DNA of 64,000 nt from contig JACJNW010000037.1 in assembly GCA_014695195.1 (NCBI GenBank), forward strand, positions 62,001 to 126,000, in the 5' to 3' direction. The translations under genes and the position numbers were made by a program. This document shows, piece by piece, positions 19,699 to 45,687 of this stretch. This stretch comes from Cyanobacteria bacterium FACHB-DQ100. Lineage in GTDB: Bacteria; Cyanobacteriota; Cyanobacteriia; Leptolyngbyales; Leptolyngbyaceae. The stretch's first letter is position 1. Each line of letters begins with the position of its first letter. The notes beneath the pieces were generated by a model that worked only from the letters and a program-made list of their open reading frames with translations, was not told the origin of the DNA and did not search any database.

Positions 19699-20898
19699 CT
19701 ATTGCATTCGATCGATCGTTCGATACTGAATCGCTTCTGCAACATGATGCGCTTGTAACGTCTCGTCGCCTGCTAAATCTGCGATCGTTTTTGCCACTTT
19801 AAGGATGCGATCGCTCGCCCTCACCGATAATCCCAACCGTCGAATGGCATTTTCTAACAGCGATCGTGTTGTATCGTCAAGTTTGCACCACTGGCGTAAG
19901 TGAGCGCTCTGCATCTCGGCATTACAGCGCAGGGGAGTGTCTTTGAAGCGGAAAGCGGCGCGATCGCGGGCTTGTTGAACTCTAGCGCGTACCGTTGCTG
20001 AATCTTCTCCGGTGGGTTGCTGCGTAATTTCTTCGGGCTTTAGTCGATTCACCCCCACTTGCAGATCAATTCTGTCCATCAACGGGCCAGATAATCTCGC
20101 CCAATATTGCTCTCTTGCTCTCGGTGAACAAGTGCAAGGCTGCACTGTATCTGCATAAAATCCACAAGGACAAGGATTGGTACTGGCAACTAAGGTAAAT
20201 TGCGCCGGAAAAGAAACCGATTGCCGGGTTCGAGAGATCGTCACGTTGCCATCTTCCAGCGGTTGCCTCAAAAACTCTAAAACATCGCGTCGAAATTCTG
20301 TTAATTCGTCCAGGAATAAAACGCCTCGATGTGCCAGCGAAATCTCACCCGGACGCGGAAACGTACCGCCGCCAACCAACGCCGCACCCGAAGCCGAATG
20401 ATGCGGGCTGCGAAACGGACGATCGCCAATGAGTGATCCTTTATCTTTCAAGAGTCCCGCGACCGAGTGAATTTGAGTGACTTCTAACGCTTCTTCAAAC
20501 TCCAGGGGCGGCATGATTCCAGGTAATCTTCGCGCCAGCATCGTTTTTCCACTGCCTGGAGGCCCAACAAAAATGAGGTTATGTCCGCCAGCCGCAGCAA
20601 TTTCTAGCGCGCGTCTTGCATGGGCTTGACCTTTGACATCGCGCAAATCGGGAGCCGAAATTTGCATCTCAGCGATCTCAAGCGCGGTATCAATTTGAGC
20701 CGGAATGTAACCAATCGGATTGTTGAGAAACGCGCCGACTTCAGATAAATGCTTGAAGCCGTAAACGTTGAGATCCTTGACCACCGCCGCTTCTCGAACA
20801 TTATCGGCAGGCACGACTAAATTAGAAATGCCAAGTTGTTTTGCGGCAGCCGCGATCGCCAAAACTCCTGCTACCGGACGCAAACTACCATCGAGCGA
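19699..20898 (-). pseudogene. comM: comM (yifB), C-terminal 400 codons, cut by the integrated element
   Basis: This is the C-terminal part of the Mg-chelatase-like AAA+ ATPase ComM/YifB, a helicase that promotes branch migration during natural transformation. The fragment has SLDGSLRPVAGVLAIAAAAK at the cut, the Walker A loop FVGPPGSGKTMLARRLPG, RSPHHSASGAALVGGG, the Walker B LFLDELTEF, and a C-terminal AAA lid with RASDRILKVAKTIADL. The N-terminal LonB-like portion is absent and appears, in the same orientation, at 45,201-45,410, 24 kb away. No start codon is available upstream within the element, so the protein is presumably inactive. Stop codon and 3' end are intact. Confidence 0.93.
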
Positions 20899-20919
20899 CA
20901 GTCAAACGATTTAAGGAAC
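20887..20919. other. Left attachment junction
   Basis: Host comM codons end at the core AGCGA (20,894-20,898). Element sequence follows as CAGTCA and then the 15-base arm AACGATTTAAGGAAC (20,905-20,919), the exact reverse complement of the arm at the right end. Confidence 0.88.
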
Positions 20920-23900
20920 AGTCAGAAAGGCGAAAAATCGCAAGAAAAAACCGTTCAAAATTTTGGCTCAGAAACGGCTGAGAACCTTGTAACGTATAGC
21001 TTTGAATCGGAACACGAACCTTATGTTTATATAAGAGATACAGACGGTTCCTGTTCCGATGTGAGGTTTGGCTCTGAAGCTTTTCGATCCTTCCTGGTAA
21101 CGCTGCTGCCGAAGAACGGATCACGTGAAATTTGGTTCAAGTATGGACACGGTAAATTTTTTGTAGGCGACTGGCAAGAATCGGGACATTTTCCCCTGTA
21201 CGCCACAAAAAAGACGGGTGAAGCCGCTTCTACTCGCGTCAAAACCGAGAAGGTTACAGAGGACGCTTACGCTTATCTCAGGGATCTTTCTGAAGCAGCG
21301 CTAGAGCCAAATGAAGACGGCGAACTCCCATCAGGTGGAATCTTCTACTTACCGACTCAGCCACAAGGACACGCAGGTAAAGAAGCTTGTGATTCAACTG
21401 ATGATCTTCCTTGTGAGATGGATGCTGGCACCCAAGCCGAGCAGTTGGCAAAGTGGCAAGAATTCACCAGAATCACAGGGTTGATTCCCGCGTCTCTCCT
21501 TTCAAGCGGTGGCAAGAGCATACACGGGCACATCAAACTAACTGAGCATTACCCGATAGAGCAAGCTGACTACTTGCGTCGTCTGTTCATCTTAGGAATG
21601 AACGGTGATCACATCGTCGTCAGTAACCGCACTCAACCAATGAGAATCCCTGGATTCTTCCGTGTTGAGAAAGGAGCAGAACAAACGCTTCTCTTTAGCT
21701 CAAACGCTCGTTACACCTATGATCGGGTGTTAGAAGGTCTAACGGTCTGGTTTGCTCATATCGGCTATCCGATGCCAGACCGAATCTCGGATGATTGGTG
21801 GTCAGAGCTTAAACCAGCGCTCAAGTTAGCTGAGAAAGAGAGCGATCAAGAGCTTCTAGAATATCTGAACCAAGGGATCGACGCTTGGGAAGAGAACGAA
21901 CGGCTGAAAGAGGAACAGAAGCTTAAAGAGCGTGAAGCTAGAAAAGCGCAACGCATCGCAAACGGCACTCAATCGAGTGACCTACTGAAAGCTTTTGAGA
22001 ACTGCGTTAATAATGCTGATTCAAGTGATTTCGATTTACGCGATCACGGTTGGATCGGGAATCACAAAAAAGTCAGAGGATTCTGCACATTCCACGCTGG
22101 TACTACTAAATCTGCTTTCCTCTCGGAACATCACGGTAAATATTTTTTCCACTGTCCAACCTGCCTATCTAAGAAAGGTGAGTCCCTAGATCTTTTCACT
22201 TATTGGCTCAGCGATCTCAAGGGTCAGATCGTCACTGACTATCCAAAGGGTAAAGAATGGGTAGAACTGGCGAAAGAGTTTCTTGCTGATCACGGTGTTG
22301 TTTACGAAGAACCTGAGCGCACGATCACCCAAAAGATCACCGCTGCTTCAGCAGATGGATCGACCGTCGAAGAATCGATCGAAATCCCCTACACGAAAGA
22401 AGCTTGGATCGCCGCTAAAAATCAATCTGAGTATGATGCTTACCGAGAAACCGCAGAAGCACCGCTAGAGTTTGACGAATGGCTGAAGCAGAAGAAAGAA
22501 GCTTGGAGAGATGCCCAGATTCAAGCTGAATATACAGATTATTGCAAAACTGTAGAGAAGCCGCTCAAGTTTAAGAAGTGGCTGAAACAGCGCTCTACTG
22601 TTTGGGCACAGGGTCAAGGGTTTGAGGAGTGGAAACAGGCTCGAAAATTTACACCCAATCAAACGATCAATCAGCCGTTTATCGATCTTTCGACTCCTGA
22701 AGTTGGCACGATTGTAATTCTCAAGAGCGGACTGAACACTCGTAAAACACAGTACGCAACCGATACGATCGCTAAATCTGAGAACGGTTTTAACGCGATT
22801 CTTCCGACAAACTTCCTAGCTCTCCAGTTTGGCTCTAGAGCCTCAAAAAGCCTGTGGGAACACAAACCCTATCAACACGGCTTAGAGTTAGTTGAAGAAG
22901 CTTCTAAACTCAATCCTGACACCTATAAAACCGTTCACCTACGCTCGGATGAAGTTCGTAAAGCTCTCCGTACCGTAGGCTGTCCTGATAGCATTTGTAA
23001 ACTGTCTCACAAACAACTGAAGGGTAAACCGTTCATTGTTGATGAAGTTGACGCAGTGCATGAAGCTTTTTTGAGTCGAGATACTGCGATTAAGCGTAAT
23101 CGGTCTGAAGCTCAAGAGCGGTACGCTTATGCTCTCCAGAAATGCTCTTACGCGCTTCTGATGAGTGGTACAGCAAGCGATATCGATGTCAACTTGGTTA
23201 AAGCGCTTGCCCCTAACAAGAAGATCATCGTTATCGAGAACATCCATAAGCCTGTACAGCAGAAATTCATTCGACACGCAGCAGGATCGGGTACTTTATC
23301 GAAAGAGCTTGATAGAACTATCAGTAACCGTGAACCGTTCATTGTACTTGCTGATAACGCCCAGAAGCTTGAAGCGCTCCACCAAACGTTACAAGAAAAA
23401 AAGCTTAATGGGTACTGTCTCACCGCATCTAGCCAGAATGAACCGTGGGCTAAGAGTTTAACAGATGATGCAGATTTGTTTTTTGAAAAGAACAAAGTAG
23501 ATTACTTCCTTGCATCTCCTACGATCGGAAGCGGTTTTAGTTGCAACATCGAAGGATATTTCAAGGCACAGTTCACCCCATTTGTGGGGCACAACTTGAC
23601 CAACGGTCAAAAGCAATTTCTGATTAGATTCCGTGATCCTGAGATTATCCGCCACTACGAGACACCCTCGACAGCTAAAGACCGTTCTCAAGTCTCGCTT
23701 AAGCTAACAGCTTCTGAAGCGATGCAGGACATCATAAGCAGCTTGGAAGAGTACGCATCATCAGCGCTCGAAGGGGAAGCTCTATCGAGTCTTGAAGCTA
23801 AAGTGATGAATCTGATTAAAGACTTCAGAAAGAACGCATTCACAAAAGCTTTGAGCGAATCCACAGCCGTTGAGAATTTCGAGCGTCGTAATCTGGATCT

Positions 23901-25011
23901 TTGTCTGAAACACGCGCTAGAGCAAGAAGGGCACAAGGTAGAAGATTACAAAGTATCTGATGATCAATCGTCAGATGAGATCTCGGAATTAGAAGCGGAT
24001 GTGAAAACCTGTAGAGAGATTCAGGAAATCGAACGCTTTAATAAGGTCGCGGCAGCGAAGTTAATCGATCAAGAGGAAGAAGAGACGATCACCTCGACGA
24101 TGAACCCTACACCAGAGCAGAGAATCGCTAAAGAGCGCTATTCGCTTGAAATGAGATTCCCTGAAATCGGCAATACTGACTCCTGGAAAGAAAACGGAGG
24201 CGCATTTATCCGGCAAATCAGAGATGAAAATCTAGGAGAGAAGGCAACGCGCTACTACTTGTTCCAAAATCCTGAAGTGATCCAACCGAGGCAACGTAAG
24301 AAGATCGTCAAATGGGTAAACCAGAACGCGATTGATATTAATGACATCAAACGTGATGACACAATGATGATCCAAGCGTTGCAGCACGAAAGCTTCAAGC
24401 AATTGATTTCGCTGAAGAAAGTTTCAAAGGATTCACCAGAGCTTAAAGCGTTTATCGATTACTGCACACCCAAGATTCAAGACAAACTCAAGACCCAGAT
24501 CGGCAAATCGTCACCTATGCGATTTTTTGGACGGGTGATCGAAAAGCTTGGATTCCAAACTGAGCGGGTGAAAGACGGAGGTAAATGGGTTTACGAAGTT
24601 TCAAACATCTGGGAGAGTAACGCAGCCGCACGTGACATCCTTCGTTGTGTTGAACAACGCTTCAAAAATAGCCTGAGTGATCCAGAAAATGACGCAGAAA
24701 AAACCGCTCAAAATTTTGACTCAAAAACGGCTGAATCCCTTGCCCAGTATGATTTTGAATCGGAACACGAGCCTTATGTTTATATAAGAGAAAACATTGG
24801 TTCCTGTTCCGATGATTTCGACTATTCAGAGGCAAATTATCAGGCGTTCATTCGGGATCTTGGTTTAACCGAACCACAACGAAAGGCACTCGAATCACTC
24901 CAAGCAGAACTGGCTAAATCAAACTATGCCCATGAAGAAGTAGAGAAGGCGCGATCATTTCTCCCTCGCAAATTGTGGAGTCTGCTAGAGTCTCCTCTAG
25001 CCACTGCCTAA
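20896..25011 (+). CDS. Plasmid replication initiator, CyRepA1-like primase-helicase, 5' end displaced
   Basis: A very large protein (1371 codons from the junction) of the kind annotated in cyanobacteria as CyRepA1 plasmid replication protein. Visible parts are an archaeo-eukaryotic-primase motif SSGGKSIHGHIKL (near 21,505), a CHC2-like zinc finger CTFHAG...FFHCPTC (22,083-22,170), a helicase P-loop-like SGLNTRKTQ (22,725), a Walker B VDEVDAVHEAF (23,040), MSGTAS (23,160) and SPTIGSGFS (23,520). The P-loop lacks the usual second glycine. The reading frame runs open leftward into comM antisense with no plausible native start; an ATG at 20,836 is the only in-frame one nearby. In the circle its true N terminus would be supplied by 45,018-45,200. 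A 118-bp segment is duplicated at both ends of this frame. Confidence 0.85.
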   Translation, partial: RQSNDLRNSQKGEKSQEKTVQNFGSETAENLVTYSFESEHEPYVYIRDTDGSCSDVRFGSEAFRSFLVTLLPKNGSREIWFKYGHGKFFVGDWQESGHFPLYATKKTGEAASTRVKTEKVTEDAYAYLRDLSEAALEPNEDGELPSGGIFYLPTQPQGHAGKEACDSTDDLPCEMDAGTQAEQLAKWQEFTRITGLIPASLLSSGGKSIHGHIKLTEHYPIEQADYLRRLFILGMNGDHIVVSNRTQPMRIPGFFRVEKGAEQTLLFSSNARYTYDRVLEGLTVWFAHIGYPMPDRISDDWWSELKPALKLAEKESDQELLEYLNQGIDAWEENERLKEEQKLKEREARKAQRIANGTQSSDLLKAFENCVNNADSSDFDLRDHGWIGNHKKVRGFCTFHAGTTKSAFLSEHHGKYFFHCPTCLSKKGESLDLFTYWLSDLKGQIVTDYPKGKEWVELAKEFLADHGVVYEEPERTITQKITAASADGSTVEESIEIPYTKEAWIAAKNQSEYDAYRETAEAPLEFDEWLKQKKEAWRDAQIQAEYTDYCKTVEKPLKFKKWLKQRSTVWAQGQGFEEWKQARKFTPNQTINQPFIDLSTPEVGTIVILKSGLNTRKTQYATDTIAKSENGFNAILPTNFLALQFGSRASKSLWEHKPYQHGLELVEEASKLNPDTYKTVHLRSDEVRKALRTVGCPDSICKLSHKQLKGKPFIVDEVDAVHEAFLSRDTAIKRNRSEAQERYAYALQKCSYALLMSGTASDIDVNLVKALAPNKKIIVIENIHKPVQQKFIRHAAGSGTLSKELDRTISNREPFIVLADNAQKLEALHQTLQEKKLNGYCLTASSQNEPWAKSLTDDADLFFEKNKVDYFLASPTIGSGFSCNIEGYFKAQFTPFVGHNLTNGQKQFLIRFRDPEIIRHYETPSTAKDRSQVSLKLTASEAMQDIISSLEEYASSALEGEALSSLEAKVMNLIKDFRKNAFTKALSESTAVENFERRNLDLCLKHALEQEGHKVEDYKVSDDQSSDEISELEADVKTCREIQEIERFNKVAAAKLIDQEEEETITSTMNPTPEQRIAKERYSLEMRFPEIGNTDSWKENGGAFIRQIRDENLGEKATRYYLFQNPEVIQPRQRKKIVKWVNQNAIDINDIKRDDTMMIQALQHESFKQLISLKKVSKDSPELKAFIDYCTPKIQDKLKTQIGKSSPMRFFGRVIEKLGFQTERVKDGGKWVYEVSNIWESNAAARDILRCVEQRFKNSLSDPENDAEKTAQNFDSKTAESLAQYDFESEHEPYVYIRENIGSCSDDFDYSEANYQAFIRDLGLTEPQRKALESLQAELAKSNYAHEEVEKARSFLPRKLWSLLESPLATA
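20943..21060 (+). repeat. 118-bp direct repeat inside rep, copy 1
   Basis: Aligns without gaps to 24,696-24,813 with 98 of 118 bases identical by hand count. Both copies are in the same reading frame and encode QNFxSxTAExL then FESEHEPYVYIR and GSCSD. Confidence 0.9.
24696..24813 (+). repeat. 118-bp direct repeat inside rep, copy 2
   Basis: Second copy near the C terminus of the replication protein; see copy 1 at 20,943-21,060. Recombination between the copies would delete almost all of the gene while staying in frame. Confidence 0.9.
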
Positions 25012-26106: not shown

Positions 26107-26532
26107 ATGTACCAAAAAAATAGACCAACTAGATCACAACTTGAGAACTGGCTTTTGAATCCTAAAGCTATCTCTTGGGTTCAGGGCTATTGCCAGAATC
26201 GCTTTAGCGTGTCTGAAATACGGATCGCAATGCAGCATTTGATCGAGCGCTTACTACAGTTTGACGGTGACGAATCGATCGTAACGCCAGATAGTAGATT
26301 CTCATTCGGTGTGGATACTGCCAAGTGGCAATTGTGGGTAGTCGCTGATCTCATGGGAGTAGCACATATGCCCGATTACCCTGTGAGATTAGCTGACACG
26401 CTCGAATCCTCCCCAACTTCTAAGGGTTTCTTCAATAGCGCTCCTAATCGTTCCTCTAGTCCTGCTCAACAGGCAAAGCAACAGCGCAGCCTTAAGCAGT
26501 TCAAACGCTCTCAGAAAGTTCACACACGATGA
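26107..26532 (+). CDS. Element protein of unknown function (141 aa)
   Basis: The product starts MYQKNRPTRSQLENWLL and has a helical centre SVSEIRIAMQHLIERLLQFDG and WQLWVVADLMGV, then a basic, Ser/Gln-rich tail ending LKQFKRSQKVHTR. The tail could bind nucleic acid. No family is recognised. Its stop overlaps the start of the following coiled-coil gene by 4 bases (ATGA), so the two are translationally coupled. Confidence 0.6.
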   Translation: MYQKNRPTRSQLENWLLNPKAISWVQGYCQNRFSVSEIRIAMQHLIERLLQFDGDESIVTPDSRFSFGVDTAKWQLWVVADLMGVAHMPDYPVRLADTLESSPTSKGFFNSAPNRSSSPAQQAKQQRSLKQFKRSQKVHTR

Positions 26533-27101
26533 TTAATCTCGCAAACCCATTCAAACAAAAGGAAATCGACGTTATGACACTCGCAAGTTACGAAGCAGTT
26601 TTGAGCGATCGCACCAAAGCAATTCTAGAGTTGAATCGACAGAAGCAAGAGTTAGAAGCGCGAGAAGCTCGAAAGCTTGAACTGATTGGAGCTATCGAGC
26701 AAGCCTCACAGTTAATCGATGCGGCTGATTCGGATGCTCAGACAATCCAAGCTGATATCCAAGCAAAGCAGCGTGAGTTAGACGCGATCGAGAAATCGCT
26801 AACGAAGGAACAGCAGAAAGTTGCCAAGGATGCCGAAGCGATCCAAAAGCGGTTCCTTGAGAAAGCACAGAAGTTTAATCGGTTGATCGATGAAGCTGAA
26901 TCGATCTGGAAAGAGCTAGGAGCGGAAATCTCCCAGACTGAAGCGATCACTTTCCGCGTTTGCTACGGAGTCAACAACCCGATCAATCTGGGTCAAGTGT
27001 TTGATTTCAAATTTAGCGATCTACCTTTATTTGGTAAACACGATAATAGCCCTCAGATCAACGCTGTGACACGCTACCAGGGGCATCCTAACGCACTCTA
27101 A
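26529..27101 (+). CDS. Coiled-coil protein (190 aa)
   Basis: Residues 20-135 form a long alpha-helical coiled coil (ILELNRQKQELEAREARKLE, then AKQRELDAIEKSLTKEQQKV), followed by a compact C-terminal part with VCYGVNNPINLGQVFDFKF. The start overlaps the previous gene by ATGA; an alternative Met at residue 16 also exists. No enzyme motif is seen. A structural or scaffold role within the element is possible but not demonstrated. Confidence 0.65.
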   Translation: MINLANPFKQKEIDVMTLASYEAVLSDRTKAILELNRQKQELEAREARKLELIGAIEQASQLIDAADSDAQTIQADIQAKQRELDAIEKSLTKEQQKVAKDAEAIQKRFLEKAQKFNRLIDEAESIWKELGAEISQTEAITFRVCYGVNNPINLGQVFDFKFSDLPLFGKHDNSPQINAVTRYQGHPNAL

Positions 27102-27168: not shown

Positions 27169-27375
27169 TCAATCGTTGAAGCTCACGCTATCTCTAAAGC
27201 TTGCTCTTTTGTTTGGCACTGGCGAATGCTTTTGAATGCTGTCGATAAATTGTTCTCGTAAATGCGAGCAATCGTACTTCTTCAAAAGATTATCGATCGT
27301 TTGCATCTGTCGATCTGTCGATTGCTTCTGAAGCTTTTTGCCGATTAAATTAACTACTGAATCAATTTCACTCAT
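27169..27375 (-). CDS. Small protein coupled to terS (68 aa)
   Basis: From the ATG at 27,375 the product begins MSEIDSVVNLIGKKLQKQST. Its ATG overlaps the TGA of the terminase gene (ATGA), indicating translational coupling. It is helical and basic, with HLREQFIDSIQKHSPV near the centre. No family is recognised. In phage satellites, small genes next to terS often redirect packaging, but that role here is only a suggestion from position. Confidence 0.55.
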   Translation of the reverse strand: MSEIDSVVNLIGKKLQKQSTDRQMQTIDNLLKKYDCSHLREQFIDSIQKHSPVPNKRASFRDSVSFND

Positions 27376-27917
27376 TTGATAACTTCCCATTCGCTTCTTT
27401 CATTCTGTCGTAACTTAATCCCGTAAGATTCACAAATTCTCAACCCTAGCGCTAATTCTTGACTGTATCCACTGATTTTTAATAAAGTCTCAATCGCTTG
27501 TACCTTGGAAAACATCTTAAGTTTTCTCTTTCGTTTAATCCCTTCGCCTGATTCAATTTCATCAACGCTAAAGTCACTCACGCAGGCTAGAGCGTTCGAT
27601 TTCAATAGCTCATCTTTCGGTAGCATTTCGCCAGTATCAAGATCAAGCAGGTGATCTATTCTGGCAAATGCGATTGATTGAAGCTCTCGGATTAATCGCG
27701 CTTCATCGATAACGATTTTTTCCTCTACTTGTCCTTTCAAATAGGATAAATAGGCTGAAATGCTAGGGTTTTTTAGAAGTTTGCAACCCTCAACGCCTGC
27801 GATCGTTCGCTTAGTCGCTTTGTATCCCGCTAAAACATAAGCATCTGTCGCGCTCTCTCCTTTGAAGATAGCCTCAGCAAATCGCCTTTGTTTCTGCGTA
27901 AGCTTACCGTCGAACAC
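27372..27917 (-). CDS. terS: Phage terminase small subunit-like protein
   Basis: The N terminus LTQKQRRFAEAIFKGESATDAYVLAGYK is the characteristic helix-turn-helix of Terminase_2 small subunits, which bind phage pac/cos DNA and recruit the large subunit for packaging. The rest (TIAGVEGCKLLKNPSISAYL, then a helical region and IETLLKISGYSQEL) fits the family, at 181 residues. No large terminase, portal or capsid gene is present in the element. A lone terS next to an integrase is a hallmark of phage satellites, so the element may hijack a helper phage. It is co-oriented with the recombinase 34 bases upstream. Confidence 0.75.
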   Translation of the reverse strand: MFDGKLTQKQRRFAEAIFKGESATDAYVLAGYKATKRTIAGVEGCKLLKNPSISAYLSYLKGQVEEKIVIDEARLIRELQSIAFARIDHLLDLDTGEMLPKDELLKSNALACVSDFSVDEIESGEGIKRKRKLKMFSKVQAIETLLKISGYSQELALGLRICESYGIKLRQNERSEWEVIK

Positions 27918-27950
27918 ACTTAAGAAATTACTTTAGAACCTATCTACAGT

Positions 27951-29825
27951 TTAACTATCGGTTGTCTGTTGACTTCTCAATTGATGCTCTAATGCCGTTC
28001 TTTCGTTCATTTCATCTGCTTGCCTTTGTAAGGCTTCTAATTCTTTCTGAAGTTCGGTTGCTAGGTTGAAATTCATCACTACCGATCCATCGGATAAAGT
28101 TGTATTGAACTCACGAACATAGACAGACTCAACATCATCATGAGCGCTTAAGAATTCCTCCACAGCTTCGCTTAAGACCTTGCTAGGGAGCTTATCGAAA
28201 GACACAATTACATTCACATCCCAAACGACAGAGCGCTTACGCTTCACTGGCTTATTATTCGTAAGTGCAAAGTCTTGGTTTTCGCTAGGCTTACAAAAGA
28301 TTTTACTAATCAAATCTCGATATATAAAATACTTTTGATCATCCGTGAGACGTTGCCAGAAGCGCTTATCTCGCAGCGCTCCTAAGATTCTCGCTTTAGT
28401 TTCTAATGGTAATTCCTCAGTTTGTTTCTCAAGAGTTAAACCTTTGATTTCGTTCGTGAGACGTTCGATCGCTAATGCTACCTCTGGCACATCTTTCTTT
28501 AATGGTTCTAATTTTTTGATTTCATCTTGTTTCTTCAAAATCTCAGGATTCACAGGAGATTCAATCGGCTTTTCTGCCATCTCTCGAAAGTCGATCGCAA
28601 ACCGTTTGAGCTTGCCAACAATTTGATCTTCTATGTAGTCTGCTCGAATGTAATTGGATGTACCATTGACCCCGCTATTGCATGATCCTAAGTTTGCGCG
28701 TTGGCAATAGTAGTAATAGTAATCGCGATCTCTTCTTCCTGATGTACCCTTACCAGCTTTTGAGTAATAAAGATTTCGTCCGCACACCTCACACTTAACT
28801 AACCCCGATAAAGGGTGCTTGCGTATGTTTGAGGTGAAGCCATGACTCTCTTTATTCTCTTGAATAATTGCCTGAATTCGTTGGGATTCTTCCTCAGTGA
28901 TCAAGCGCTGATCCTGATGAGTTCCCCAGAGAGGCTTTCGATTTTCTTCTGAATCATTGAAGTAGACTAAATGCCCTCTTAAGACGGGGTTTGTAATCCA
29001 TTTTGCAAACCCAGAAGGTGATCTCTGAAATATACCTTCATTATCAAACCCAGAGTGTACCGTTCTACCTCTAGCTAGGGTTTGTATTCCATAGTTTCGA
29101 TTGAATGCTCTAATGGTTTGTCTAATGCTTTTAATTTTTAAATAATTTTCAACTAAATAACGAGCGGCATCATATCGGCTTTTGCTGCATTCATTTTGAT
29201 CGCCGTTCTTCCACTGCCTAAACTCATCTTCTGACCATTCAGAAGTGTCAATCATTGGAAAATCTTTAGGACGCTCCTCAAGTAAACATAAGAATGGTCT
29301 TTTGTCTAATTTGTGTCGTCTTGTTTCTACTTTTTTATTATCAATTTCTACAATTTCTTTATCTCCTTTGAGGTATCCAAAAGGTGGGTGCATAGCCTCT
29401 CTACGCTCTCTAAGCGCTTCCCAACCGTGTCTGGTACGATTGCTGATGTTATCTGCTTCGGTTTCAGCCATTGCGATGAACAGATTAAGCGCGATCGAAG
29501 ATGTATCAACTGATGTATCTATCGCTTGATCAATCGCTCTCAAAATAACGCCGTTTTGCGCCATTTCGTCTTTCAAATCGTGCAAAACTTTAGCTCTACG
29601 AGAAAGCCGATCTACCCTTGTCACAACGATTTGATCGACCTTCTTATCTCTAACGTCTTGCCTCAGCTTCTCAAACTTCTTTCGCTTACCTGATGTGCCT
29701 GACGATATTTCGGTAATGATTTCGTTTGCGCCAGCTTCCTTGAGCCTTCTCGTTTGGTTGTCTAATGTGTGCGTACCGTTAGCCTGTTCAGTTTTTGATA
29801 AACGGACATAACCCACGATTCGCAT
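27951..29825 (-). CDS. Large serine recombinase (integrase/excisase)
   Basis: A 624-residue recombinase from the ATG at 29,825, after an out-of-family extension of five codons. The catalytic domain holds MRIVGYVRLSKTEQ with the nucleophilic serine at residue 10, EISSGTSGKRKKFEKL, and VVTRVDRLSRRAKVLHDL. Then come the recombinase domain and a zinc ribbon (LVKCEVCGRNLYYSKAGKG, YYYCQRANLGSC), and a coiled coil (KKQDEIKKLEPLKKDVPEV). The layout resembles phage integrases and cyanobacterial XisF. It very likely made the comM insertion. No separate recombination directionality factor is recognised. Confidence 0.93.
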   Translation of the reverse strand: MRIVGYVRLSKTEQANGTHTLDNQTRRLKEAGANEIITEISSGTSGKRKKFEKLRQDVRDKKVDQIVVTRVDRLSRRAKVLHDLKDEMAQNGVILRAIDQAIDTSVDTSSIALNLFIAMAETEADNISNRTRHGWEALRERREAMHPPFGYLKGDKEIVEIDNKKVETRRHKLDKRPFLCLLEERPKDFPMIDTSEWSEDEFRQWKNGDQNECSKSRYDAARYLVENYLKIKSIRQTIRAFNRNYGIQTLARGRTVHSGFDNEGIFQRSPSGFAKWITNPVLRGHLVYFNDSEENRKPLWGTHQDQRLITEEESQRIQAIIQENKESHGFTSNIRKHPLSGLVKCEVCGRNLYYSKAGKGTSGRRDRDYYYYYCQRANLGSCNSGVNGTSNYIRADYIEDQIVGKLKRFAIDFREMAEKPIESPVNPEILKKQDEIKKLEPLKKDVPEVALAIERLTNEIKGLTLEKQTEELPLETKARILGALRDKRFWQRLTDDQKYFIYRDLISKIFCKPSENQDFALTNNKPVKRKRSVVWDVNVIVSFDKLPSKVLSEAVEEFLSAHDDVESVYVREFNTTLSDGSVVMNFNLATELQKELEALQRQADEMNERTALEHQLRSQQTTDS

Positions 29826-29925: not shown

Positions 29926-30069
29926 ATGGAAGAATCACCGCTTGATCTAATGCTGCACTCCGAACCCGCGCTCGCGCCTATGCCGATTGAAGCTTGGGCG
30001 ATCCTTCTGTTCATGCTTGGGCTAGTCGCTTGGTGTCTGTGGTCAGAATCGAAAGATTCTATCGATTAA
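29926..30069 (+). CDS. MEE-type one-helix microprotein, element copy (47 aa)
   Basis: Begins MEESPLDLMLHSEPALAPMP and continues with a single predicted membrane helix IEAWAILLFMLGLVAWCLW and a charged tail SESKDSID. It is one of seven related copies in the window, all with the same order: MEE, an LxxNSEPAIAP box, one helix, an acidic/basic tail. The leader AGGGAACTCTAAACCCGTCC upstream is also shared. Full-length frame with no decay, so it may be expressed. It sits between the recombinase and the protease operon. Confidence 0.6.
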   Translation: MEESPLDLMLHSEPALAPMPIEAWAILLFMLGLVAWCLWSESKDSID

Positions 30070-30547: not shown

Positions 30548-31429
30548 CTATAGTTCTAATTTACGAGCCAGATTTGCGTGAAGAATCCACGGACTCTGGT
30601 TGGTTAAAACTGCTTCTGATGCCGCCATTAAGTCCTGCCTTGCTTTTTCTGCTAGTTGTTGAGCCACAACTTGCTGAGTTAACTGACTAACAGTACTACT
30701 CAATATGACTGCATAAAATTCCCTCAGGGTTTGCTGTCTTAAGTTCAATAAATGCGTGTTTGTTCCGATACCAGCTGCTTTATATGCATCTAATACAGTA
30801 AAGCGATTATCACCATCTAGATCTATTGGGCTTGCCACATGGAGCATGAAATAAATTAGAAATAGGTTAGCGCTCCATTTAAGCGAACATTGAAATTGAT
30901 TAATAGTGGTGATAGTAGAGAGATCTACAGAAGCGCTCAAGCTAGCAGCTAAATCCGTTGCACCTAATAGACAAATCTCTGGTGGCAAAACTTTACCTGT
31001 CTGGTTAATACTTCTTGCTTCTAAGAAATTAAATGTCCCTGCGTAGCATTGCCCTAAAACGACAAGCGCAACCTCAATGTCTGTTAAAGACTTAATTACC
31101 TCAAGAAGGGGACATGGCTGAATGTCCGGTGAAGCCACGATCCCTGTAATACCACCATGACCTGTGACTACAACCACTAACTTCTTAAAGTTTCTGGAAC
31201 ACAACTCAACCTCTAACTGGGCTGTCTGATGGACTTGTATACCAGTAGGAAAGCTGTAGGCGTAGGCAAAATTAGAACCACTTGGTTGGTCAATGAATAA
31301 AAGAATGTTCTGCATTGGAAATTTTCTATGCAGTAGACATTGAACCCCAAAAGATATGTCACTTAAAAAGCGATCCTCATCAGAACCGCTTAAGAAAACC
31401 CAGATTGAATCAGAATCCAGAAGCTTCAA
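30548..31429 (-). CDS. Caspase-fold (clan CD) cysteine protease-like protein
   Basis: A 293-residue protein with two catalytic-strand motifs in caspase order: LVVVVTGHGGITGI with His91 and VALVVLGQCYAGTFNF with Cys128. A third strand ICLLGATDLAASLSAS suits the S1-pocket strand. Residues 203-214 read DLDGDNRFTVLDAY, an EF-hand-like calcium loop also seen in C13/caspase-type bacterial proteases. No signal peptide. Its ATG overlaps the end of the 93-residue gene upstream (4 bases), so the pair is one operon. A role in defence or programmed death is inferred only from family and cargo position. Confidence 0.7.
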   Translation of the reverse strand: MKLLDSDSIWVFLSGSDEDRFLSDISFGVQCLLHRKFPMQNILLFIDQPSGSNFAYAYSFPTGIQVHQTAQLEVELCSRNFKKLVVVVTGHGGITGIVASPDIQPCPLLEVIKSLTDIEVALVVLGQCYAGTFNFLEARSINQTGKVLPPEICLLGATDLAASLSASVDLSTITTINQFQCSLKWSANLFLIYFMLHVASPIDLDGDNRFTVLDAYKAAGIGTNTHLLNLRQQTLREFYAVILSSTVSQLTQQVVAQQLAEKARQDLMAASEAVLTNQSPWILHANLARKLEL

Positions 31430-32302: not shown

Positions 32303-32992
32303 TTAAAACAAATCGTGCTGAACCTCATCCCCTTCATCGTCTTGATTATCAGTTCTCTCTGCACAGTAAGCGTTTGAAATCTTGCAATATTTACACTCGT
32401 GAAAGCTAGGGACTTTTCTAGCAGGATTAACTGAACTGACTAAACGAACAACTTCACGAAATTCCTGCTTGAAATTCTCATCAAGCATCATAGAAGAGAT
32501 GTCAAAAATTTCATTCCCATAGACCAAGCGACCCTCCAACTTTTTATTGCGGCAGTGAACAGACCCACCTGAGAGAGGCAACAGTAACATGTAACATAAA
32601 ACCTGCATGACATGATCGCTCTTCTGCCGACCTGTTTTACAGTCCTCAACTACAATTTCGTCACCTCGGATGGCAACTATATCAGCTTTGCCTGCAACTT
32701 TAGTCCGACCGTCTTTACCAATAATCGTAAACTTGTTTTGATCTTCAATGTAGACCGTGTAACCTTCAGACTCTAGCTGCCCAGCCCGTTCCTTGACTAA
32801 TCGATCATGCTTTGCAAGCACAGCACTCATATCAGATTCGATTTTGTCAAATTTATGATTTGCCTGAAACCAAGCTGCCCATTGACAATGGTTACTACCA
32901 GCAAGCAACGGAGTCAGCCATGTCACCCAAATGTAAGGATCATCTCGTTTTTCTGCGGGTGATGGAGAATAAGAAGATACAGATAGAACCAT
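32303..32992 (-). CDS. PD-(D/E)XK nuclease with Fe-S cysteines, Cas4/AddB-like
   Basis: A 229-residue protein with the nuclease core GKADIVAI (Asp104), DEIVVEDCKTGR (Asp117, Lys119) and a motif III MQVLCYML (Gln130, Tyr134). Four cysteines flank the core as in Cas4 and AddB: Cys36 in NHCQWAAWF and Cys200, 203 and 210 in FHECKYCKISNAYC. This suggests a 4Fe-4S cluster. No cas genes or repeat arrays are nearby, so it is a stand-alone exonuclease, perhaps for element recombination, replication or host defence. Family call is good; role is open. Confidence 0.78.
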   Translation of the reverse strand: MVLSVSSYSPSPAEKRDDPYIWVTWLTPLLAGSNHCQWAAWFQANHKFDKIESDMSAVLAKHDRLVKERAGQLESEGYTVYIEDQNKFTIIGKDGRTKVAGKADIVAIRGDEIVVEDCKTGRQKSDHVMQVLCYMLLLPLSGGSVHCRNKKLEGRLVYGNEIFDISSMMLDENFKQEFREVVRLVSSVNPARKVPSFHECKYCKISNAYCAERTDNQDDEGDEVQHDLF

Positions 32993-35685: not shown

Positions 35686-35770
35686 CATTGGGGATCTCCT
35701 TAAATACTTTGGGTGAATGGGTGAGAGAACCACTGACTAAGACTTGAGAGGTTAGCCAGTGGCAGAAGCG

Positions 35771-35950: not shown

Positions 35951-36118
35951 TGGTTTGTCTCTTGTGTTTAGGGACTAAGGCAGTGCTTTAGATTGGTAGT
36001 CGGGGCACTGCCTTTTTGATTGGCTGATCTGCTTCCTCTCAGCCTGGTATCTTCGATACTCTGGCGAATCCTGTTCACCTGTCTCTTGAGCGGTTGTCTC
36101 TCCCCTCAACACTTACTA

Positions 36119-38248: not shown

Positions 38249-38527
38249 TTAAGCCCATTCATCATCTGGGATTGGTGTTTCATCCTCTGCCGTCTCTTCA
38301 GTGGGTTGTGTTGGCTCTGAAGACTGAGCAGAAGAACTGTCTACAGTGTTTGGTTTGGGTGAGCCGAATATTGAAGGTCTACCTTCCCGATACTCTGCAT
38401 AGAGGGCTAAAGCGTTTAGAACCGTAGCGGGAAAGTCGTCTCTAAGCTCTGGCGCTGCTTTCCAAACACGCTCGATCAAAGCGGCTAATCTCTCGGTTAC
38501 TCTTAAGCGAATCGTAGGACTAGGCAT
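38249..38527 (-). CDS. parR: ParR-like partition adaptor
   Basis: A 92-residue protein with an N-terminal ribbon-helix-helix-like part (MPSPTIRLRVTERLAALIER) followed by an acidic, disordered tail with TEETAEDETPIPDDEWA. It directly follows parM with one overlapping base (TAATG), the usual order of type II plasmid partition operons, where ParR binds the centromere and caps ParM filaments. No sequence family is certain; the call rests on size, fold pattern and position. Confidence 0.7.
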   Translation of the reverse strand: MPSPTIRLRVTERLAALIERVWKAAPELRDDFPATVLNALALYAEYREGRPSIFGSPKPNTVDSSSAQSSEPTQPTEETAEDETPIPDDEWA

Positions 38528-39573
38528 TAGTTAAGACCTCCATTGATGCGGATCAATTGTTGCATCACTAGGCAGGTTTGAAAGTCAGGCTGATCGAACA
38601 CTTCGATTGAATGCTTCTCACCCCATTTAGAAAGCTGTTCATCCGACAAAGTTAGACGCATCAGTGCGGCTCCCCCTCCTACCAGTGCGATTCTAGAAGT
38701 CTGTTCATCCTCACTCGAAAATCGAATCTCAGTACGAACCGCCAGCGCTGCATCTTCGATCCGAGTCTTCAGCACCTTTAGATGATTCTTAAGCAATGGC
38801 TTTAGGTCAATCTTTCGTAATTCGGTAACACCCTCGCTTAGTTTTGCGCTCAGACGCTCTACGCTTGGGGGTGCTGATGCGCCAGAGTCTTTCACTTTGG
38901 CTAGGAATGCAGGATCGTTTAAGAGGGATTTTAATACCAGATTGCAACCTCCCTGATCGCCTCCCATTAATGGCACGTTCACAACTTCACCAGATCGGTT
39001 TCTGTATGCGGCAAGGATCGTACCGAAACCGATATCGATCAGACCGTTGAATTCTGAAACCGATTTAAGAAGTACCGCACCTTCAAACTCAGTCCGAATC
39101 GAATCAAACGCGATTCTATAGCTCTTTCCTTTGACGGTGAAACCATCTGAAAGCGGTTTTACTTCTGCTTGAATCTGCTTGCTTAGGGTATCACTGGCGA
39201 ATGGAGAGGAGACGATTAGAGAGCAACTCAAATCACTAGATAGAATCTGCCCTTCTGCAATCTTTTGGATCACTTGTGCAATTGCAACCGATAGATCCTT
39301 TACCTTGTCACCTTGGCTTAAAGGAGTGCTGACACTGCCCACAGTCATCGAAATCGCATCGTCACCGCACACATAAGCGGACTTACCAATCTGAATCATT
39401 CCGTTTGCTTCTACCCTGCGGATCACGCTCGGAATTTTGAACGGTTCCAAGGGGACACCATTTACACTCACTGCCACCTTTGTTCCAGAGTTGCCACGGT
39501 CGATCGCTAGGAGCAGGTGATCAGGAGTGGTCTGATTCACTTTGATCGGGTTTTGTTCAGTCGTCAAAATCAT
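38527..39573 (-). CDS. parM: ParM-like actin-family ATPase for plasmid segregation
   Basis: The ATG at 39,573 follows AAAGAGG and gives a 348-residue protein. Actin-fold motifs are LLLAIDRGNSGTKVAVSVNG (phosphate 1), GLIDIGFGTILAAYRNRSGE (phosphate 2) and SRIALVGGGAALM (adenosine). ParM filaments push plasmid copies apart. Its presence, together with ParR and iterated repeats upstream, shows that the element is or recently was a low-copy plasmid. Upstream open codons to 39,648 are less likely. Confidence 0.82.
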   Translation of the reverse strand: MILTTEQNPIKVNQTTPDHLLLAIDRGNSGTKVAVSVNGVPLEPFKIPSVIRRVEANGMIQIGKSAYVCGDDAISMTVGSVSTPLSQGDKVKDLSVAIAQVIQKIAEGQILSSDLSCSLIVSSPFASDTLSKQIQAEVKPLSDGFTVKGKSYRIAFDSIRTEFEGAVLLKSVSEFNGLIDIGFGTILAAYRNRSGEVVNVPLMGGDQGGCNLVLKSLLNDPAFLAKVKDSGASAPPSVERLSAKLSEGVTELRKIDLKPLLKNHLKVLKTRIEDAALAVRTEIRFSSEDEQTSRIALVGGGAALMRLTLSDEQLSKWGEKHSIEVFDQPDFQTCLVMQQLIRINGGLN

Positions 39574-39609
39574 CGTTTTTACCTCTTTGTGGAATTGTTT
39601 GTTTTTGTG

Positions 39610-39679
39610 GGCTGTTTGTAGGCTTTGCATAGGTCTATTGTAGCACAACGCAAAACTTGATGCAGGCTGTTTGTAGGCT
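39610..39679. repeat. Twin 15-mers GGCTGTTTGTAGGCT
   Basis: Two identical copies at 39,610-39,624 and 39,665-39,679, 55 bases apart, just upstream of parM. Good candidates for ParR sites or operator sites of the partition operon. Confidence 0.7.
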
Positions 39680-39945: not shown

Positions 39946-40311
39946 TTAATTGTTGGATGAAAGCTCTAACATCCTGCTAAACATTTGAATTTCGCTTGAA
40001 TAACTCTCTAAATATTCACAAACGACATAAGGGCAGTCTTTACGCGATTTGGATCGGTAGCGTGTCGGAAACTGCATAATTTCGCCTCTCACGCGCCAGA
40101 GATGACCATTCCAAGGGAAGCACTCACCCTTAGACGGTCTGGTGTTGAATCCAAGCAAAAATTGTCCTTGCGTATTGGCTAAGTCGATCGCGCTCATTTG
40201 ATTCGCGATTGCATCTGGCAACTGAAACGAGCAGAGAATCCATAAGCGAGGTTGCTTGACCGTGACGCGATTGTGAACGCGAGCCTTATGCACTGCTTCT
40301 GAGAAATCCAT
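39946..40311 (-). CDS. Element protein of unknown function (121 aa)
   Basis: Product begins MDFSEAVHKARVHNRVTVKQ and reads RLWILCSFQLPDAIANQM, GQFLLGFNTRPSKGECFPWN and a basic FPTRYRSKSRKDCPYV. It could be a small beta-barrel. It is the last gene of the ATPase operon, 50 bases after the ATPase stop with a hairpin between. Confidence 0.55.
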   Translation of the reverse strand: MDFSEAVHKARVHNRVTVKQPRLWILCSFQLPDAIANQMSAIDLANTQGQFLLGFNTRPSKGECFPWNGHLWRVRGEIMQFPTRYRSKSRKDCPYVVCEYLESYSSEIQMFSRMLELSSNN

Positions 40312-40361: not shown

Positions 40362-42119
40362 TTAGAAGTCGTAATCTGCGATTGAATACTTACCGTCAGC
40401 CTCAGAAAGGATCTGAGCTTTCACAAGCGAATCGAGTAAATCCTTTATCCTGTCGGTTGTGAACCTTGAATCATCCTTGAGCTTGCGAATGCTTTGCTTC
40501 ACATCATTCGGCTTGAATGATTTATCCGATCTAGCTGCCATCCAATCAACGATCCGTGTCGCAAGTTCCACTGATTGAGGCTTCCACTGTGGGAAAGTCT
40601 CAGTAATCATCGTGCGATAGGAAGTCACTTCATCAGCCGTATCTGAATCAATATCAAGCTGTGGTTCTGCGCTAGGAGCGTTATAAAGCCGCTCTAAGTC
40701 TTGAGCAGTTGCAATCGGTTTGTGTTCGATAATCTCGCTCGGCGTTGCTTCTGATGCCAGAGAAACCAGTTGCGAGATGTCAGCAACCTTGCCGTCAATC
40801 AAACAGGGTCGATCGTACTTTGAGATATCAAGCGCCCATTCTTTAGATTGAGCCTCAGCAAAGCCTTTGAGATAGACGTAACTCAAGTTATCTCGTAGAC
40901 TGCCTTCTCCCTCGATTCCGAGCGTTTTAACCTCTGATCCTTGAGCAAGTAGAATCAGCCTGATCTTGCTCGTTCTACCTGCTCGGATGATGAACTTTAG
41001 ATCCTTGACGACATCCAAACCTAAATCCTTGCATCCAGAAACGAAGGTCGGTACTTCATCCAGGATCACGTTGACGGGCATGAAATCATCCTTGCCAGTT
41101 CGATTCATTTGGTCTTCACGCTGCTTAACCAACGTTGTCAAACCTTCGAGATTTGCCGCGATCGCGTGGAAGTCATATGGCAACCCGATCACCTGCATTC
41201 CGATGAAATCCTTCGGTTTCTTTTTAGGAGTGATCACCAGCGTTGATCCATTCAAGAACCGACCCAACCGCTCTGCTAGATAAGATTTACCTGCGCCAGT
41301 CTTGCCCAATAGAAACAAATGTGGGTAATCGTCGTAATGGGTGTTTAACAAGTTCCAATCGAATAGCTTTGATTCTGGTGACGCGATAGGCAAGACGAAA
41401 GGCTGATCCGCTTGCTTCTGCGCTGGAGTGTCGATCGCTGCTAGTTGAGTATTGGGTGAGGGTTGATATTTTGGAGTCTCTACTCTGGGTGCGGTTGGTT
41501 CTGTTGACTGATAGAGCGTATCAAACGTGAAATCCTGTGTCTCTGCCACGATCGAGCGTCCTAAGTTTTCCGCTTCGATTTTTGCTTTTACGATTTGCTC
41601 AAACGTCCGCACGATATCGTGATCGAGTTCGCTAGACATCCCCAGAGATGCCCGTTGCTGATACTGATGAGTGAATGCGCCTAGTAAATCGTCGTAACAC
41701 TCGATCAGCGCTTCTTTAGGCATTCCACGCTTAGCCAGCGCATATATAAGTTTGAGTAGTTCTGGGCACGATTTGAGCAATAAGTATTCTGCTTCTCGGA
41801 TGCTTTGCTCCTGTGCGGATTGCTGAGCGATGAAATAGTTATAAACGGCAGCCGCAATCGGTAGAATTGCCGTAAGTCCAATCCCCACGGTTGCAGCCGT
41901 AGCCAATCCAGCACCCGCGCCAATAAAAGCGCTCATGTATGCAACGTTTTTACTATTTGCAGCAGTGCGATCGAGATCTCGCACCCACGGTCTAAGATTT
42001 TGCACCGCATCTTCTGATGACATCCCCAACTCTAAAACCATGTGACCTAACACTGATTCATCCTTGTCTGGGTAGGTCCGATCGGCTGCATTCTTGCCGT
42101 AACGCGATAAACTTGACAT
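40362..42119 (-). CDS. FtsK/HerA/TraD-like DNA-translocase ATPase with membrane hairpin
   Basis: A 585-residue ATPase. Residues 60-100 (YMSAFIGAGAGLATAATVGIG then ILPIAAAVYNYFIA) form a membrane hairpin, then a linker rich in Pro/Gln, then the RecA-like core: Walker A GKTGAGKS at 272-279, Walker B VNVILDEVPTF at about 349-359, and an Arg-finger-like RAGRTSKIRL. A C-terminal winged-helix-like region ends the protein (VKQSIRKLKDD, IKDLLDSLVKAQILS). The design suits a coupling protein or DNA pump in conjugation, element partition or packaging. It is preceded by four membrane or small genes. Confidence 0.75.
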   Translation of the reverse strand: MSSLSRYGKNAADRTYPDKDESVLGHMVLELGMSSEDAVQNLRPWVRDLDRTAANSKNVAYMSAFIGAGAGLATAATVGIGLTAILPIAAAVYNYFIAQQSAQEQSIREAEYLLLKSCPELLKLIYALAKRGMPKEALIECYDDLLGAFTHQYQQRASLGMSSELDHDIVRTFEQIVKAKIEAENLGRSIVAETQDFTFDTLYQSTEPTAPRVETPKYQPSPNTQLAAIDTPAQKQADQPFVLPIASPESKLFDWNLLNTHYDDYPHLFLLGKTGAGKSYLAERLGRFLNGSTLVITPKKKPKDFIGMQVIGLPYDFHAIAANLEGLTTLVKQREDQMNRTGKDDFMPVNVILDEVPTFVSGCKDLGLDVVKDLKFIIRAGRTSKIRLILLAQGSEVKTLGIEGEGSLRDNLSYVYLKGFAEAQSKEWALDISKYDRPCLIDGKVADISQLVSLASEATPSEIIEHKPIATAQDLERLYNAPSAEPQLDIDSDTADEVTSYRTMITETFPQWKPQSVELATRIVDWMAARSDKSFKPNDVKQSIRKLKDDSRFTTDRIKDLLDSLVKAQILSEADGKYSIADYDF

Positions 42120-44587: not shown

Positions 44588-44833
44588 ATGTGTTTAGCGA
44601 CGATGCCACGGAAACGAACAAATTTTGTTATTGACGATCGCGTTTTAGCGGCATTGAAGAATATGGCTAGACGATCAAACACAAGCGTTAATCGCTTCGT
44701 AGAGAATGTCTTATTTGAACTCGCTAAAGAACAGGGCGAAATCGATGCTTCTGCTGAACCGCTCGGAGAAACACGCGGTAGACCGTCTGATCAATACGAA
44801 AAAGCTTCAGACTCCACACAAGAGGAAATCTGA
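44588..44833 (+). CDS. Ribbon-helix-helix-like small regulator (81 aa)
   Basis: Product includes MPRKRTNFVIDDRVLAALKN then ARRSNTSVNRFVENVLFELA, a typical Arc/MetJ-type RHH layout, and an acidic, Ser-rich tail (GRPSDQYEKASDSTQEEI). Two starts are possible: ATG 44,588 and ATG 44,603. The gene is the nearest one upstream of the displaced rep start (45,018), so it may repress rep or bind the palindrome at 44,844. Confidence 0.65.
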   Translation: MCLATMPRKRTNFVIDDRVLAALKNMARRSNTSVNRFVENVLFELAKEQGEIDASAEPLGETRGRPSDQYEKASDSTQEEI

Positions 44834-45017: not shown

Positions 45018-45200
45018 ATGACTGATTTATACAATCCCGACAAGTCCCTAGATCCGATTTCTCCTTCGCCAGCTCCTAGCTCAACTCACGCTACACCTAT
45101 TTTACCAGAAAATGAGAATCATTCTCATACGATTGAAGCTTCAGATGATCCGACCGATGTTCCTTTTAACGGTTCCTTAAATCGTTCGATAATCAAGCGA
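45018..45200 (+). CDS. Displaced N-terminal 61 codons of the replication protein
   Basis: ATG at 45,018 opens MTDLYNPDKSLDPISPSPAP and runs through the right arm to SIIKR at the core. In the integrated state it ends three codons after the core with a stop in comM (RDFA). In a circle, the codon CGA of the core is followed by CAG TCA AAC GAT from 20,899, the same frame as the left-end replication gene. The joined protein would have 1431 codons. A DnaA-box-like TTATCCACG lies at 45,006-45,014, four bases before the ATG. No Shine-Dalgarno site is seen. Confidence 0.85.
45172..45200. other. Right attachment junction
   Basis: Arm GTTCCTTAAATCGTT (45,172-45,186), nine bases, then core AGCGA (45,196-45,200). 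Host comM sequence follows (GACTTCGCC). Confidence 0.88.
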
Positions 45201-45410
45201 GACTTCGCCTAAAAACAAATACTTATCTAAACCTTCGGTTTGAACTTGTTCTGCTGCTGCGAGAATGCCAATACTAATGGGCAGATCAAAGCTCGGCCCT
45301 TCTTTCCTCAGATCCGCAGGCGCAAGGTTAATCACAATCCGCCGCATCGGAAATGCAAATCCAGAATTCTTGATCGCCGTTTTAACCCGCTCTTTTGATT
45401 CTTGAACTTC
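45201..45410 (-). pseudogene. comM: comM (yifB), 5' region fragment without start
   Basis: On the minus strand this encodes VQESKERVKTAIKNSG, PMRRIVINLAPADLRKEG, SFDLPISIGILAAAEQ and KYLFLGEVS, the N-terminal part of ComM that ends exactly where the fragment at 19,699-20,898 begins (SLDGSLRP). The first roughly 33 codons are missing; before the VQES residues the frame meets a stop and changes into repeat-module sequence at about 45,405. So comM is damaged at two points, by the element and by the repeat. Confidence 0.9.
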
Positions 45411-45687
45411 GGTGCCTTATCTGCGGACTACCAAATTTCTCTTTCTCTTTATTCTTTCCTACATACAAAACTGGCTAACTGGCTAACCTTAAGAAGCAGA
45501 AGTACAGACAGTAAAAGGATTATGAGTGGGTTAGCCACTTCAAAAACTGCCTAAAACTGGCTAACAACTGGCTAACCCATGCCGCCGACATGAAAGAGCT
45601 GATCAACGAATTGACGGGCTTCTTTGTTTGCAGCATTTAATCGCGCCTAATCTGGGAACTCTAACCCCGTTCCTTATCCCCAGCGGC
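45405..45687 (+). repeat. MEE-type repeat module, copy truncated by a MITE
   Basis: Starts with the shared CTTCxGTxCCxTATCTGCGGACT, then AT-rich sequence, paired ACTGGCTAAC direct repeats (45,468-45,488 and 45,553-45,577), an inverted GTTAGCC, and the leader CCTAATCTGGGAACTCTAAC. The leader stops at 45,687, where a 130-bp MITE starts instead of ATGGAAGAA. The module replaced the 5' end of comM. Confidence 0.7.

Follow-up and report, generated by a model that had tools for sequence, protein, structure and literature searches.

Phage-inducible chromosomal islands and Staphylococcus aureus pathogenicity islands (PICIs and SaPIs) are integrated elements with their own replication gene and no structural or lytic genes, and those PICIs that bear terS, the gene for a terminase small subunit (TerS), use it to direct their own DNA into helper particles (PMC6092414). 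The idea of a satellite phage-plasmid has also been published, for group G8 of cryoconite viromes (Bellas et al. 2015, PMC4490671). Here we analyse a 64,000-nucleotide stretch of Cyanobacteria bacterium FACHB-DQ100 (contig JACJNW010000037.1, positions 62,001 to 126,000; hereafter the window), in which a 24,302-bp element (20899–45200, core to core) with the core AGCGA is inserted in comM. Judged from sequence, it is an element carrying a large serine recombinase (LSR) at one fixed comM point; its attachment site, attP, is inside the coding sequence of the replication gene, rep, such that integration separates its first 61 codons, at the right end, from the remainder at the left; and its TerS has a full Terminase_2 domain and a coupled 68-codon gene, with no other recognised virion or packaging gene. 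We consider it very probable that the element is an integrative plasmid with its rep divided at attP, and we propose it as a plasmid-derived candidate satellite that is not a PICI.

In common with PICIs and SaPIs, the element is integrated, has its own replication gene, carries terS as some PICIs do, and shows no structural or lytic genes in 30 of the 31 open reading frames (ORFs) that we chose from the ORF listings, these 30 having been scanned with PHROGs and the other (44588–44833) with Pfam and NCBIfam only. The earlier note on this DNA had likened it to PICI-type satellites. We rejected membership on replication module and size, since rep is of the CyRepA1 type instead of pri-rep, and the element and its closest relative measure 24,302 and 26,259 bp against about 15 kb for Gram-positive PICIs as described in PMC6092414; a serine recombinase and an actin-like gene are further differences, and no helper is known. 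Cryoconite G8 is alike in having plasmid-like genes, few or no virion genes and a proposed helper, and the genes given for ML_43_3791 include ParB, terminase, resolvase and integrase; G8 differs in its P4-like prim-pol, its size below 16 kb and its recovery from virus-size fractions, and ML_43_3791 also has a phage tail gene (all as given in PMC4490671). The present element, in contrast, combines a CyRepA1-type rep, an LSR and integration in comM, and is known from its genes alone. Tycheposons are cyanobacterial integrating elements proposed as satellites, with a tyrosine recombinase and a tRNA target. The serine recombinase and comM target found here fall outside that definition. The tycheposons of marine picocyanobacteria are named in PMC11389934 and PMC10803314. 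Elements inserted in comM have been described in Proteobacteria, where comM is a preferred target and its interruption has been argued to inhibit transformation (Croucher et al. 2016, PMC4774983). The examples named there have integrases like CF65_00446, whereas the present ones lie in cyanobacteria and carry LSRs; they would be a cyanobacterial comM case with serine recombinases. Our literature search, with most subscription journals outside its reach, found no TerS-bearing CyRepA1 integrative plasmid and no attP inside a plasmid rep gene; attP inside rep is what is new here.

The comM insertion, the exact ends and the split rep were all absent from the earlier note. An open comM frame of more than 500 aa occupies this site in six of seven other genomes of the same genus, and the ends of the element follow from where comM homology stops and resumes (Table 1). 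The features expected of an LSR element are present, namely the three recombinase domains, a short core with inverted attP arms and a fixed target. There is no tRNA in the window, and Rfam at gathering thresholds returned nothing between 20800 and 45400. Separately, comM is split elsewhere (around residue 110–130 of its C-terminal part) in three genomes of the same family, G017, G023 and G024 (L014–L015, L016–L017 and L018–L019); in G017 and G024 the gene that comes after its N-terminal part looks like one for a tyrosine recombinase. Two kinds of element thus seem to target comM.

A related 26,259-bp element lies at the same comM point in Phormidium tanganyikae FI6-MK23, of the same genus (G001, JAHHHU010000005.1), and contains the same block of LSR, TerS and small gene; because the block recurs in a second genome, we do not regard it as a chance arrangement. 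Between the two elements, identity is 62% for TerS, 42% for the small gene, 45–49% for the LSR, 63% for a 121-aa protein, 76% over 76 residues of a 97-aa protein, 42% over the C-terminal 120 aa of an AAA protein, and 25% and 34% for the actin-like protein and its neighbour; much of the remaining cargo has no counterpart. With both LSRs as queries against 388 genomes of the class (at most three candidates scored per genome), the LSR clade at E ≤ 1e-60 comprises four genomes, those of the window and G001 together with G458 and G545, and all four have the element at the same comM point. The G458 element spans about 23 kb between the comM halves. Its LSR adjoins the comM junction, a 1100-aa ORF that no Pfam or NCBIfam model names occupies the position of rep, and its AAA protein is a related one (32% over 252 aa); tblastn found neither TerS nor the small gene in it. 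About 6 kb of the G545 element is available before the contig start ends it; this part has a D5/DUF5906-type primase and, again, no TerS and no small gene. With two elements of the clade lacking them, TerS and the small gene look as though they might be an addition to a comM-integrating plasmid line, to judge from four elements, one of them partial. A small Cys-containing ORF convergent with the LSR is alike in G458 (L084 1308–1544) and G545 (L085 1335–1541) and was not found by tblastn in the window or sister element; it is a candidate directionality factor.

Joining the element ends produces a single rep frame in both elements, which adds 61 codons in the window and 53 whole codons in G001. 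Among Markov sequences generated from the right ends, an ATG-started run at least as long as that observed arose in 127 of 20000 (window) and 194 of 20000 (G001), and the other two frames at the right end run for 0 and 0 codons in the window and 0 and 17 in G001. From the start codon, 24 of 30 nucleotides are identical between the two elements. Once joined, the inverted attP arms agree at 15 of 15 positions in the window and 13 of 15 in G001, values that none of 500 shuffles reached, and the two attP sites are alike. Since integration parts rep from its start codon and upstream region, the integrated gene would be off or weak. The first in-frame starts past the junction are GTG 21061 and ATG 21418, and upstream there is TTG 20836 within comM. 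Mycobacteriophage BPs offers a parallel, as its attP lies within a key coding gene, that of the repressor, so that integration alters the product and immunity is integration-dependent; there the C-terminally shortened repressor made after integration is the stable form (PMC4557955), whereas rep here loses its N-terminus and start.

The matches of rep point to plasmids. The window rep scores 182.1 bits with NCBIfam CyRepA1, a little short of the cut-off of 200, and the G001 rep scores 300.1 bits with the same model, above the cut-off (4e-89), and also matches DUF3854. By tblastn, rep matched 25 plasmid records, none over as much as 80% of the query; the named ones are cyanobacterial and several are annotated CyRepA1. 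The same search against phage records gave no match, and the joined N-terminus matched plasmids only from residue 112 on. The 81-aa gene upstream of rep resembles stretches of two free plasmids, one from Fischerella (L041; 47% identity over 73 aa, some 1.7 kb ahead of rep) and one from Tolypothrix (L043; 36% identity over 64 aa, some 2.2 kb ahead of rep). In the Synechocystis plasmid pSYSA, a CyRepA1 rep is preceded by a control region and a small gene with an antisense RNA, and this small gene and rep are needed for replication; pSYSA is a free plasmid, unlike the present element (as described in PMC9978351). By analogy, the 81-aa gene may stand in the role of the pSYSA small gene. Two short non-coding stretches lie nearby. 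One of 55 nt (44418–44472), between the divergent AAA-side and rep-side genes, is 93% identical to the sister element (L025 12874–12929) and is a possible origin, operator or small RNA; the other (44866–44896), about 120–150 nt before the rep start codon, is identical to the sister in 29 of 32 alignment columns and is a possible copy-control element.

The earlier note had read the 181-aa protein as a Terminase_2-type small subunit. This was borne out by Pfam Terminase_2 (PF03592; 72.8 bits against a cut-off of 26.1, E 5.9e-20, model positions 1–129 of 141) and by PHROG 51 'terminase small subunit' (1.3e-24); NCBIfam gave no match, and the profile check that the note had proposed assigned the protein to no non-phage family. 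Its AlphaFold model has a mean predicted local distance difference test score (pLDDT) of 85.7 (18-row alignment). A plain Foldseek search with this model returned nothing significant, and small terminases emerged only on a second look. The first 60 residues then superposed on the DNA-binding domain of the SF6 small terminase (4zc3) with Z 9.1 and a root-mean-square deviation (rmsd) of 1.4 Å over 56 aligned residues, and the model matched the full SPP1-like 3zqq with Z 8.0 but an rmsd of 15.4. This comparison of predicted structures indicates an N-terminal helix–turn–helix (HTH) DNA-binding domain of the SF6/SPP1 type. Sequence-profile matches to the PDB include the SPP1-like TerS 3zqp (4.3e-17) and the small terminase 21di (2e-14) of Pam5, which we take to be a cyanophage. 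The C-terminal tail (YGxxLRQN...W) occurs in several other cyanobacterial Terminase_2 proteins, some of them followed by a TerL-like (terminase large subunit) ORF, as judged by eye; we had considered the tail a plasmid-only extension, after a Fischerella plasmid protein, and dropped that idea when the wider alignment placed it in these other proteins. Between the window and sister TerS, 113 of 181 residues are identical while four-fold sites agree at 15 of 39, a pattern from which we infer selection on the protein.

TerS stands without recognised partners of the virion. As the earlier note had it, the scanned ORFs of the element include no convincing gene for a capsid, a portal or a large terminase, which leaves TerS with no convincing TerL in its own genome unit. 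The packaging- or head-named matches are weak: in the 585-aa AAA protein, a P-loop stretch drew the name terminase large subunit (E 0.036); a coiled-coil 190-aa protein (26529–27101) drew minor head protein (0.016) and portal (0.53); and an HTH protein (36210–36494) drew terminase small subunit family 24579 (4.5e-4) but matches a transcription regulator better (6.8e-6). We take these names to reflect a shared P-loop, coiled coil and HTH. A phage-plasmid would carry virion genes on a plasmid replicon; here terS is the sole firm gene of that kind. Terminase_2 occurs in 13 of the 388 class genomes, and homologues of the window TerS in four of the 42 genomes of its family, namely the two elements and two prophages in which TerS accompanies TerL (G002 and G017). 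Weak matches elsewhere in the phylum (G059, G308, G352 and G388; 5 of 386 genomes including its own) look by eye like ordinary phages with TerS, TerL and portal-like ORFs.

Table 1. Features of the comM element and its flanks; positions are those of the window.
Feature	Position	Strand	Evidence
comM (Mg-chelatase-like), C-terminal part, severed by insertion	19699..20883	-	PF01078 8.8e-97, PF13335 2.6e-33
attL core AGCGA, left copy, in comM	20894..20898	.	homology to intact comM of G007 (L003) stops at 20898
rep from codon 62 on, CyRepA1-like, element left end	20899..25011	+	NCBIfam CyRepA1 2.2e-53
attP arm AACGATTTAAGGAAC, left end	20905..20919	+	inverted arm comparison
68-codon gene, ATGA-coupled to terS	27169..27375	-	mechanical ORF is 73 aa
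TerS, lone, Terminase_2	27372..27917	-	GTG start, 181 aa; Pfam and PHROG
LSR with Resolvase, Recombinase and Zn-ribbon domains	27951..29825	-	domain matches
92-aa neighbour of the actin-like gene, ParR-like from its position alone	38249..38527	-	no family match
Actin-like partition protein, ParM-like	38527..39648	-	PHROG 691 'partition protein' 8.5e-11; 25% identical counterpart in G001
121-aa protein without family	39946..40311	-	63% identical in sister element
AAA/FtsK-like ATPase (585 aa) near putative membrane proteins	40362..42119	-	P-loop below cut-off; PHROG FtsK/SpoIIIE-like 0.0017
81-aa gene before rep, weakly ribbon-helix-helix-like	44588..44833	+	Pfam RHH matches under cut-off
rep first 61 codons, ATG 45018, element right end	45018..45200	+	in frame with 20899 once ends are joined
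attP arm GTTCCTTAAATCGTT, right end	45172..45186	+	15/15 inverted match to left arm
attR core AGCGA, right copy, in comM	45196..45200	.	comM homology resumes at 45192 (L003, L007) or 45199 (L006)
comM, N-terminal part (upper limit approximate)	45196..45545	-	ComM N-terminal motif around 45329; DNA homology 45192-45416 to intact L003

We assign a probability of about 0.5 to the whole reading, that is, a 24.3-kb integrative CyRepA1-type plasmid with rep split at attP and a TerS that serves packaging by a helper phage. Prophage-type TerL (PHROG 2) is present in four genomes of the genus (G001, G002, G004 and G007) at 6.9e-18 or better, which indicates that phages, and so helpers of some kind, are about. 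The whole Terminase_2 domain, the shared tail and the conservation at the protein level favour use of the protein as a TerS. Several observations weigh on the other side. The amino-acid likeness of the two rep N-termini is weak taken alone, with 53 of 2000 shuffles scoring as high, and the integrated rep may yet start at TTG 20836 or GTG 21061. A search of the element's own genome for one TerL family, PHROG 2, and no other gave a single weak match (2.4e-4), which falls at the same profile positions in all eight genus genomes and has no phage context; in addition, the G002 prophage TerL has no counterpart in this genome, nor is there a second Terminase_2. In G001, the ORF before the prophage TerL is not among that genome's Terminase_2 matches. 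The TerS of the two same-family prophages is only 24–29% identical and lacks the C-terminal tail. The scans of IMG/VR and of genome contigs were seeded with short peptides and are most sensitive to close relatives. Queried with TerS, the small gene, the 121-aa gene and the LSR, IMG/VR yielded one TerS relative (L031), on an ordinary phage contig with TerS, TerL and portal-like ORFs by eye, and nothing for the other three. No pac site was found, and synonymous conservation has no peak anywhere along terS. That a helper phage packages the element is plausible, and the chances of a satellite role are about even. The hybrid of satellite and plasmid put forward in the earlier note thus stands in so far as a conserved TerS without virion partners lies in an integrated element of plasmid type that has its own rep and an actin-like gene, and this arrangement recurs in a second genome; the other half of the idea, packaging into helper particles, found no corresponding evidence, as our searches yielded no helper, packaging site or virion-derived copy of the element.

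The rival that survives best, although we think it unlikely, is that TerS is a domesticated plasmid DNA-binding protein that takes no part in packaging and serves, for example, in excision, copy control or transcription. Solo and partial TerS genes in other settings leave room for a non-packaging role. In Fischerella sp. NIES-4106 plasmid4, the CyRepA-like rep is immediately followed by a gene for a 119-aa protein (L041 22417–22776) that matches the C-terminal part of Terminase_2 only (6.4e-9) and lacks the DNA-binding domain. G001 has two solo terS (Terminase_2) copies (L069 9506–10274 and L070 9254–10025) in unrelated chromosomal places, 90% identical over 779 alignment columns, with no TerL read within 19.5 and 19.9 kb around them; as each has little else with it, in a genome that also holds the sister element, one may ask whether they represent a mobile terS cassette. 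The gene's position co-oriented with and 33 nt after the integrase, the lack of a helper and the low identity to the nearest same-family prophage relatives (just 24–29%) also fit domestication. Retention of the whole Terminase_2 domain, with a tail common to several cyanobacterial TerS, argues the other way. So do the two further comM elements, one of them partial, which share the type of integrase and the target yet show no TerS, from which it follows that TerS is unneeded for integration.

A less probable alternative concerns the small gene. The earlier note's observation that terS adjoins the integrase and is coupled to a 68-codon gene by ATGA was confirmed, as the LSR ORF, with its ATG at 29825, stops (27951) 33 nt before the TerS start, and the terS stop codon TGA (27374–27372) overlaps ATG 27375 of the small gene (ATGA at 27375–27372). 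Its product could be a recombination directionality factor of the LSR, with terS a mere passenger in the operon. It does lie in the LSR operon, and the AlphaFold model of the 68-aa protein alone is that of a small protein of three helices (mean pLDDT 68.5, low confidence). Its counterpart in G001, 42–43% identical, again follows terS; the gene accompanies TerS in two of two cases and was not found in the two LSR-clade comM elements without TerS, one of these partial. Because it goes with TerS and not with the LSR, we read it as a possible TerS partner and not as an excision factor, a reading based on four elements, of which one is partial. As a directionality factor may lack conservation, the absence from the other comM elements is not decisive. 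Least probable is a defective prophage, or a phage-plasmid minus its virion genes, in which TerS is left over: TerS is indeed the sole firm virion or packaging gene, and LSRs are common in phages, but we rejected this as the best reading because rep and its neighbourhood are of plasmid type (CyRepA1-like rep, actin-like partition and an 81-aa gene with relatives near the rep of free plasmids), the same reduced gene set recurs with open frames in the sister at 62% TerS identity, and an element of the same LSR clade and target with a related AAA protein exists without TerS.

The earlier note had also placed ParM and ParR in the same unit. The ParM-like assignment is supported weakly, by PHROG 691 (8.5e-11), and no Pfam model scores above its cut-off for the actin-like protein; ParR is suggested by position alone, the 92-aa protein being 34% identical over 59 aa to the 83-aa neighbour of the G001 actin-like gene and without a family match in the Pfam, PHROG and NCBIfam scans. 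Elsewhere in the element, a 293-aa protein (30548–31429) with GHGG and GQCYAG motifs, presumably caspase-like, has no match in Pfam, PHROG, PADLOC or NCBIfam and is possible defence cargo. PADLOC, run on ten proteins, assigned 32303–32992 to Cas4 models, with weaker DruK and Cas1g matches, and the AAA protein weakly to mad8 and PDC-M04A. The sister element carries a gene for a 37-kD nucleoid protein (NA37; L025 28–1194) and a RelA/SpoT-domain gene (L025:1237–2217, PADLOC PDC-S33). The Cas4-like nuclease and these two sister genes are possible anti-phage cargo. The 97-aa gene with about 190 bp upstream (35446–35955) shares 75% DNA identity with the sister, above most of the element, and a short sequence reading like a small single-membrane-span peptide recurs at 29926–30047, 49454–49580 and 59435–59634 and on the G001 contig.

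If the element is an integrative plasmid whose TerS serves packaging by a helper, the integrated rep, cut from its start codon and upstream region, would be off or weak, and excision would turn replication on, with the actin-like pair keeping the excised circle. On infection by a helper, TerS would bind a site on the element and direct the TerL of the helper there, with the 68-aa protein perhaps assisting TerS or obstructing the helper's own TerS. The interrupted comM may lower transformation and so protect the element from deletion by uptake of intact comM. We tentatively suggest, at a little under even odds, that a lineage of cyanobacterial integrative plasmids has turned into phage satellites by way of TerS and its partner, with attP in rep as the switch: off in comM, where DNA uptake is damaged, and on in the excised circle, which replicates and which TerS packages into helper particles.

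If true, this would reveal a route from plasmid to phage satellite in filamentous cyanobacteria, in which the plasmid backbone came first and terS later. Integration by a serine recombinase that splits rep would be a simple switch and would solve the problem of an active plasmid origin in the chromosome, and the choice of comM as target would link these elements to the conflict between mobile elements and natural transformation.

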